Positions 52,975-58,831 of a stretch of DNA of 64,000 nucleotides are shown piece by piece. The translations under genes and the position numbers were made by a program. The stretch lies in assembly GCA_009695065.1 (NCBI GenBank), contig SIBR01000006.1, positions 50,201 to 114,200 of the forward strand, written 5' to 3'. The stretch comes from Opitutus sp. (GTDB taxonomy: Bacteria; Verrucomicrobiota; Verrucomicrobiae; Opitutales; Opitutaceae). Under the pieces are notes generated by a model that saw nothing but the letters and a program-made list of their open reading frames with translations, had not been told where the DNA came from and did no database searches. The number at the start of each line of letters is the position of its first letter. Within the stretch, counting starts at the first letter, position 1.

Positions 52975-55890
<2,916 letters not shown>

Positions 55891-55891
<1 letters not shown>

Positions 55892-56321
55892 GTAGCGAGT
55901 AGCGGGCATGGCTGAAAAATCACAATCTTTCCGGGATGTTGTCGTGTGGCAGAAGGCGCATGCCTTCGCCCTCGCCATCTATCGCGCGACTGAGCCTTTT
56001 CCTGAACACGAGCTTTTCGCCCTCACTTCACAACTCCGTCGAGCCGCTGCCAGCGTTCCATCAAATTTCGTCGAGGGTTTCCGGAAGCGCACGAAGCCCG
56101 ACAAGCTTCGCTTCTACAACATCGCCCAAGGCTCCGCTGACGAATGTCTCTACCAACTCATCCTCGCTCACGACCTCAGCTACGCCGATACCACCGCCCT
56201 CCAAGCTGACCTCGAAGACGTCTCCCGCCTGCTCCAAGGCTCCATCAACGGCCTGGAACGCGATGGCGCCTAATCCGTCGCCTCGCGCCTACTCGCTACT
56301 CACTACTCGCTACTCGCTACT
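55891..56321 (+). mobile_element. 431-bp unit with 14-bp terminal inverted repeats carrying an S23/IVP-type gene
   Basis: AGTAGCGAGTAGCG at 55891-55904 is the exact reverse complement of CGCTACTCGCTACT at 56308-56321. Between them is one gene, a four-helix-bundle protein. The unit separates gyrB from gyrA. I see no transposase and no clear target duplication, so movement would need outside enzymes. The mobile nature is inference from the ends and position. Confidence 0.45.
55908..56273 (+). CDS. Four-helix-bundle protein (S23/IVP family)
   Basis: The 121-residue protein reads FRDVVVWQKAHAFALAIYRA, ELFALTSQLRRAAASVPSNF, VEGFRKRTKPDKLRFYNIAQ and GSADECLYQLILAHDLSY. The motif series (F-D-V-WQKA, LTSQLRRAA-S-P-N-EG, GS-E) identifies the family first seen as the open frame in 23S rRNA intervening sequences and related to the Avd accessory protein of diversity-generating retroelements. 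It forms pentamers and may bind nucleic acid. Here it sits between gyrB and gyrA, flanked by heptamer repeats. The biological role is unknown. Confidence 0.93.
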   Translation: MAEKSQSFRDVVVWQKAHAFALAIYRATEPFPEHELFALTSQLRRAAASVPSNFVEGFRKRTKPDKLRFYNIAQGSADECLYQLILAHDLSYADTTALQADLEDVSRLLQGSINGLERDGA

Positions 56322-56322
56322 C
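56289..56322 (+). repeat. Heptamer tandem repeat (CTACTCG) in the gyrA leader
   Basis: Nearly five head-to-tail copies: CTACTCG, CTACTCA, CTACTCG, CTACTCG and a partial CTACTC. The array ends 4 bases before the gyrA start, and its reverse complement (about two copies) stands at the left end of the unit. It occupies the place where a ribosome-binding site would lie. Confidence 0.9.
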
Positions 56323-56326
56323 TCCC

Positions 56327-58831
<2,505 letters not shown>

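Follow-up and report, generated by a model that had tools for sequence, protein, structure and literature searches.

Is the small unit between gyrB and gyrA of this Opitutus genome a chance arrangement, an old operon gene or a member of a wider class of genetic elements? In the window, the whole 64,000-nt stretch of DNA analysed here, the gyrB-gyrA spacer is filled by a 431-bp unit with exact 14-bp inverted ends and one gene of the S23/IVP family (Table 1). The initial annotation, made from the letters alone, had described this unit as a four-helix-bundle gene of an IVP/Avd-related family between CTACTCG heptamers, nearly five on the right and about two inverted on the left, and had proposed a non-rRNA, mobile form of S23 without its own transposase. 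The unit was verified at 55891-56321, with about 4.9 heptamer copies on the right and two on the left. Five genes of the region were profiled, namely gyrB, gyrA and genes for EIIA, CorA and a metallo-beta-lactamase-fold protein, and the two neighbours were identified by Pfam.

Table 1 Features of the gyrB-gyrA region (positions in the window)
Feature	Position	Strand	Evidence
gyrB, upstream host gene	53327..55891	+	Pfam DNA_gyraseB, DNA_gyraseB_C, Toprim, HATPase_c
Left arm: heptamers AGTAGCG AGTAGCG, exact inverted copy of right end	55891..55904	+	
S23/IVP four-helix-bundle gene, 121 aa	55908..56273	+	PF05635, TIGR02436, AlphaFold2 + Foldseek
Right arm: CTACTCG CTACTCA CTACTCG CTACTCG CTACTC, ~4.9 copies	56289..56322	+	
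gyrA, downstream host gene	56327..58831	+	Pfam DNA_topoisoIV, DNA_gyraseA_C; start from ORF list

The inverted ends, AGTAGCGAGTAGCG (55891-55904) and CGCTACTCGCTACT (56308-56321), are exact inverted copies over 14 nt. The first base (A) of the left arm doubles as the final base of the gyrB stop codon, and gyrA starts with GTG 5 nt past the end of the right arm. With no mismatch allowed, CTACTCGCTACTC occurred three times in the 64-kb window, every time inside the unit. Besides S23, two ORFs of at least 80 aa touch the unit, one in an overlapping frame that runs into gyrA (55936-56442) and one that is antisense and lies mostly in gyrA (56303-56566). The S23 ORF occupies the unit; among ORFs of at least 80 aa no transposase gene was found between the inverted ends, and the unit holds no mobilising enzyme. 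A perfect 13-bp inverted repeat with a 3-nt loop (CTTAAACGTCCAG / CTGGACGTTTAAG) was seen at 55864-55892; it spans the last gyrB codons and overlaps the left arm by 2 bases.

The 121-aa protein matched PF05635 (3.2e-33, 114.6 bits vs a curated cut-off of 33.8) and TIGR02436 (1.9e-33, 114.9 bits vs a cut-off of 24). The AlphaFold2 model had four helices and a mean pLDDT of 94.7, and Foldseek gave 2gsc as the best match, followed by 2rld and by 4dwl, the Avd protein of diversity-generating retroelements. The match to 4dwl had a probability of 1.00 and a TM-score of 0.75-0.85, but an E-value of 0.027-0.46 and 10-12% identity. Avd and S23 have the fold in common, whereas no reverse transcriptase is present in the window unit. 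The entry 2gsc has 5 chains and is a homopentamer according to the available excerpts of PMC4990558; by homology, the S23 protein of the window would be a pentameric ring of the Avd fold. Long familiar as a family, S23/IVP proteins still lack a known function, as stated in excerpts of PMC4990558 and PMC11270868. At the gyrA site the median dN/dS of S23 was 0.08 (120 pairs of 16 genes, with high dS in many pairs), which indicates that the protein is under purifying selection there.

A contig scan with the S23 protein of the window gave 182 relatives, and in the best 80 of these period 7 was the best of the periods 4-12 in 71 upstream and 64 downstream flanks. The set was widened with PF05635 matches from 12 genomes of other groups (64 of 67 matches used) and from 61 genomes belonging to the family of locus L001 (84 of 269 used). 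The latter were the strongest matches together with further copies from chosen genomes, and PF05635 was present in 51 of the 61 genomes, with up to 15 matches each. These 228 S23 loci were reduced to 206 distinct units, of which 202, from many bacterial phyla, were usable (ORF of at most 180 aa, flanks of at least 60 nt); the window's own unit was excluded, and six loci whose profile match contains a stop were retained. Period 7 was uniquely best in 139/202 upstream and 134/202 downstream flanks, compared with 66/1010 shuffled flanks per side (6.5%). At least 16/21 matches at period 7 were found in 85 upstream and 93 downstream flanks, where shuffles gave 0 and 0.4 per 202 and random stretches taken from the same loci 3.0 per 202, which rules out chance repeats. 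Since such flanks are far commoner in these 202 related units than in either control, the unit with inverted heptamer ends between gyrB and gyrA is beyond chance and confirmed as real. The proposal of an S23 element outside rRNA that has heptamer ends and lacks its own transposase is supported, and the plan proved far more general than the initial annotation had suggested.

Strong period-7 arms on at least one side were present in 33/34 near relatives and 29/46 distant loci selected by the query; in the sets picked regardless of flanks they were present in 34/72 family-genome units and 24/50 units from the 12 other-group genomes. The rate from near relatives is too high, and a fairer estimate is about half of the S23 genes. 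Copies of S23 without such flanks, named beforehand as an observation against the element, therefore exist in part: the arms of the remaining units are weak, degenerate or of another period. Hexamer-like arms (GTTCTC / GAGAAC type) were seen instead of heptamers at L240, L250 and the L130 spacer. Arrays that pass the cut-off had medians of 5.1 and 5.7 copies, and hold at least 4 copies because the cut-off is 28 nt; they abut the start and stop codons with median gaps of 8 and 3 nt. The 64 strong upstream arms outside the CTACTCG set fell into 52 exact heptamer classes, with rotations merged, single-base variants kept separate and a few classes still CTACTCG-like. On the S23 strand, 75/85 upstream arms are purine-rich and 87/93 downstream arms pyrimidine-rich.

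Left and right arms of the same unit tend to be alike. The left arm matched the reverse complement of its own right arm above the 99th shuffle percentile in 113/202 units, compared with 4.7% for arms of different units; 89/202 units missed this threshold. Within single genomes the own partner arm was the best one in 41/61 units, with 10 expected, and for same-junction units of different species, pooled over nine groups, own arms beat foreign arms (0/5000 permutations). Three of the groups were significant alone, with own vs foreign matches of 18.7 vs 14.5 at the pheT site and 17.9 vs 10.8 at the rfbA-like site (0/2000 permutations each) and 15.2 vs 8.0 at the gmd-like site (4/2000); the other six, including gatB and gyrA (414/2000 at gyrA), were not. 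Since S23 has several origins within each of these three significant groups, separate insertions could explain their arm match, and the assumption that same-site groups are orthologues throughout was dropped. The orthologue claim rests on the livH-like junction, where all nine S23 genes share a single origin in a quick tree (SH-aLRT 90) and the heptamers differ. This site had been two groups in the nine-group test; taken whole, as one group, own arms scored 25.7 vs 18.1 for foreign arms (0/5000 permutations). The other two one-origin groups had no arm match (nuoG-like, 1496/5000; third group, 1375/5000). Arms changing together in place were thus shown at one site and are not general. In the CTACTCG family the arm match was weak (own arm strictly best in 1/23; 36/5000 permutations).

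We lean, with guarded confidence, towards reading the unit as a compact intercistronic element that is non-autonomous, related to the intervening sequences (IVS) of rRNA and expressed by read-through; its S23 ring probably recognises the heptamers of the unit. Its plan would be a heptamer arm, the S23 gene and an inverted heptamer arm. S23 would probably be made by read-through from the host operon, since the unit leaves almost no promoter room and the genes are co-oriented. Most likely the pentameric ring is specific for the heptamers beside its own gene, with each subunit perhaps binding one of them, and such recognition would keep the arms of one unit alike while the heptamer differs between units. 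Over evolutionary time the S23 clade has switched between operon junctions, and S23-less arrays would be deletion derivatives; because the unit is without a transposase, any such movement would need a mobiliser acting in trans. The arms may pair in the transcript as they do in the 23S rRNA IVS, so that release by RNase III would be possible.

The unit resembles an IVS in anatomy. According to the available excerpts of PMC4990558, the 23S rRNA IVS of Coxiella burnetii carries an S23p gene, complementary ends and tandem heptameric repeats directly before the gene; it has a 28-bp terminal stem and is cleaved by RNase III in vitro. Going by these excerpts, it shares with the window unit an S23-family ORF, a length of about 430 nt, complementary ends and heptameric repeats just 5' of the ORF. 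In the window unit, too, the ends are complementary and can pair around the S23 ORF: they are exact over 14 bp and form the outer stem of the predicted fold. Unlike an rRNA IVS, the window unit lies between the protein genes gyrB and gyrA, outside any rRNA gene; compared with the Coxiella IVS as described there, its S23 is conserved and not decaying, it has heptamers at both ends, and the heptamers vary between units. None of the loci gathered by then matched any of eight 23S motifs, and the link to IVS therefore rests on the excerpts of PMC4990558.

In the predicted transcript fold of the unit (-141 kcal/mol, z -2.18) the arms form the outer stem, and 1 of 100 shuffles folded as well. Further, S23 genes between neighbours of the same direction were co-oriented with them in 136 of 141 cases and opposite in 5. 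ORFs were called here by amino-acid composition against background residue frequencies, and the S23 frame was called in only 150/202 units; this caller replaced a length-only one, which had given a noisy 108 vs 13. The fold and the sense-strand bias would also suit an RNA-only element, a messenger version of the 23S rRNA IVS in which RNase III cuts the double-stranded arms and splits the gyrB and gyrA messages while S23 is incidental, as would the in vitro cleavage of the similarly built Coxiella IVS by the RNase III of that organism (PMC4990558, in part). However, a strand-specific RNA signal was not found in the G:U test, in which 110 wobble-permissive vs 159 non-permissive transitions were counted, compared with 320 vs 554 in the cross-unit control (Fisher p 0.22), so that selection on an RNA stem via G:U pairs is unsupported, and the purifying selection on S23 shows that the gene is not incidental at the gyrA site. 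We therefore consider the RNA-only explanation unlikely. As between an action at the RNA and at the DNA level, the outer-stem folding and the orientation favour RNA, and the negative G:U test does not.

Arrays also occur without S23. The exact 13-mer GAGTAGCGAGTAG had 89 matches (overlaps counted) in 16 of 23 family genomes, compared with 7 for the reversed control pattern, and genome G005 has 13 matches and no PF05635, which indicates that the arrays outlive S23 or do not need it. Among the 30 13-mer loci listed, 3 belong to S23 units and another 3 duplicate a neighbouring locus, leaving 24 distinct S23-less sites. In 18 of these, no more than 3 of 300 shuffles equalled the inverted arms; 11 of the 24 retain GAGCAT (or its complement), the start of S23 units. 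Judged from their sequences, the S23-less inverted arrays look like deletion derivatives of S23 units, and the retained GAGCAT fits an internal deletion.

A second gene type, GxxExxY, sits between inverted repeats at the same junctions as S23 (gyrA; gatB and pheT by eye). The spacer protein of locus L132 is PF13366 (PDDEXK_3, GxxExxY-type), and PF13366 matched at all four GxxExxY gyrB-gyrA spacers (L132, L136, L141, L142) and in 52/61 family genomes. At 30 PF13366 loci (L259-L288) the own inverted arms exceeded the 99th shuffle percentile in 26/30, and 31% of the cross pairs did so as well because these repeats are shared among loci. The best period (of 4-14), taken without a shuffle control, was 8-10 in 21/30 downstream and 13/30 upstream flanks, and the commonest upstream period was 6.

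The many S23-less arrays, G005 included, and the similar arms around GxxExxY genes would be expected if the heptamer arrays were ordinary slippage-prone dispersed repeats, MITE- or REP-like, that are moved by another transposase and have S23 as a passenger or domesticated cargo. Strong period-7 arms, however, accompany about half of the S23 units in the two sets picked regardless of flanks (34/72 and 24/50), the arms tend to be unit-specific, and a passenger is not expected in so many phyla. These points argue against this explanation, which we regard as improbable. REP/REPIN sequences with RAYT, a Y1 transposase, and MITEs likewise consist of inverted repeats dispersed in intergenic DNA and have short non-coding derivatives. 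S23 units differ from them in that their gene is S23, not a Y1 transposase, and in that their arms are tandem heptamers varying between units.

Occupancy of the sites was compared in relatives; gene names were given by eye except for gyrA/B, gatA/B and pheS/T. The gyrB-gyrA spacer was readable in 28 of 30 gyrA loci from relatives: 10 were labelled empty (27-116 bp), 4 contained S23, 4 GxxExxY, 3 toxin-antitoxin-like pairs (L135, L138, L140; PIN-domain-like and HicAB-like by eye) and 7 short S23-less inverted arrays. One spacer labelled hairpin by eye (L119) failed against shuffles (171/300); the arms of the other six labelled so beat shuffles at 5/300 or better, though not in every case with period 7. 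Spacer states in the gyrA/gyrB tree, to which the window was added, needed 18 changes, not below shuffled labels, and these labels are partly by eye, given the failure of L119. Sister genomes differed in occupancy: G055 (27 bp, empty) and G001 (S23) with a support of 100/100, and G022 (48 bp) and G002 (S23) with 95/94. The arrangement is thus not the same in all relatives, and an old fixed gene is ruled out by the empty sister sites and the patchy occupancy.

One supported S23 clade (97/90, 31 rows) spans the gyrA, gatB and pheT sites; in this tree L019, L023, L025 and L035 were scored as 'other', though the junction grouping puts them at the pheT site. On a single contig, the S23 proteins at gatA-gatB and pheS-pheT are identical in 107/120 residues. 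As far as trees can tell, this clade is shown to have changed sites among the gyrB-gyrA, gatA-gatB and pheS-pheT junctions over evolutionary time. Near-identical S23 copies at two sites of one genome were not found among the 202 units and the window; the closest pair, L008/L018 on one contig, shared 290 of 366 nt, and L084/L085 came next at 77%. The top 'different-site' matches, L100/L102 and L015/L020, look like missed same-site pairs, L015 being absent from the site groups. No target-site duplication was found, and at the sister empty site compared (L127 vs L128) divergence is too great for the junction to be placed. Mobility, as claimed in the initial annotation, is inferred from site-switching and patchiness and not from a target duplication, a mobilising enzyme in the unit or near-identical two-site copies among the units compared; the earlier reading as a whole is partly supported. 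A fixed, immobile operon gene that regulates its host operon via the heptamers would fit the purifying selection, the single S23 origin at each of the livH-like, nuoG-like and third junctions and the arrays abutting start and stop codons, but is very improbable in view of the patchy occupancy in close relatives, including empty sister sites, and of the spread of a single S23 clade over three operon junctions that are unrelated.

The recurrence of compact, non-autonomous S23 units in many phyla points to a widespread, little-described kind of compact genetic element, and suggests a class that hides in operon spacers. More tentatively, and as a possibility rather than an expectation, S23 could represent a bacteria-wide class of selfish intercistronic elements whose pentameric ring reads unit-specific arrays of about five heptamers at both ends, one per subunit; GxxExxY nuclease-fold genes, which have other inverted repeats but share the operon junctions, would then form a second class alongside it, and the rRNA IVS would be a branch that entered rRNA. 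S23 proteins without a function and bacterial heptamer repeats without an owner are now linked by period-7 inverted arms that tend to match within a unit. This rule makes a direct binding test possible and places the rRNA IVS in a wider family. Among the open PMC papers listed, no title or abstract beginning was found to connect S23 or other four-helix-bundle genes with heptamer arms elsewhere than in rRNA. Intergenic tandem heptamers are described for Xanthomonas and Nostoc in excerpts of PMC4692102, and intergenic TAACTGA tandem repeats for Beggiatoaceae in excerpts of PMC4679880; as described there, both resemble the S23 arms in being tandem and intergenic, and the terms 'S23' and 'four helix' are absent from the main texts of the two papers. 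S23 units might account for some of the bacterial excess of heptameric repeats cited in the excerpts of PMC4692102. Apart from the repeats, the S23 genes of L062 (Syntrophaceae MAG) and L079 (Elusimicrobia MAG) were 80.5% identical in DNA over 349 nt, a likeness that suggests either a transfer between phyla or a binning error.
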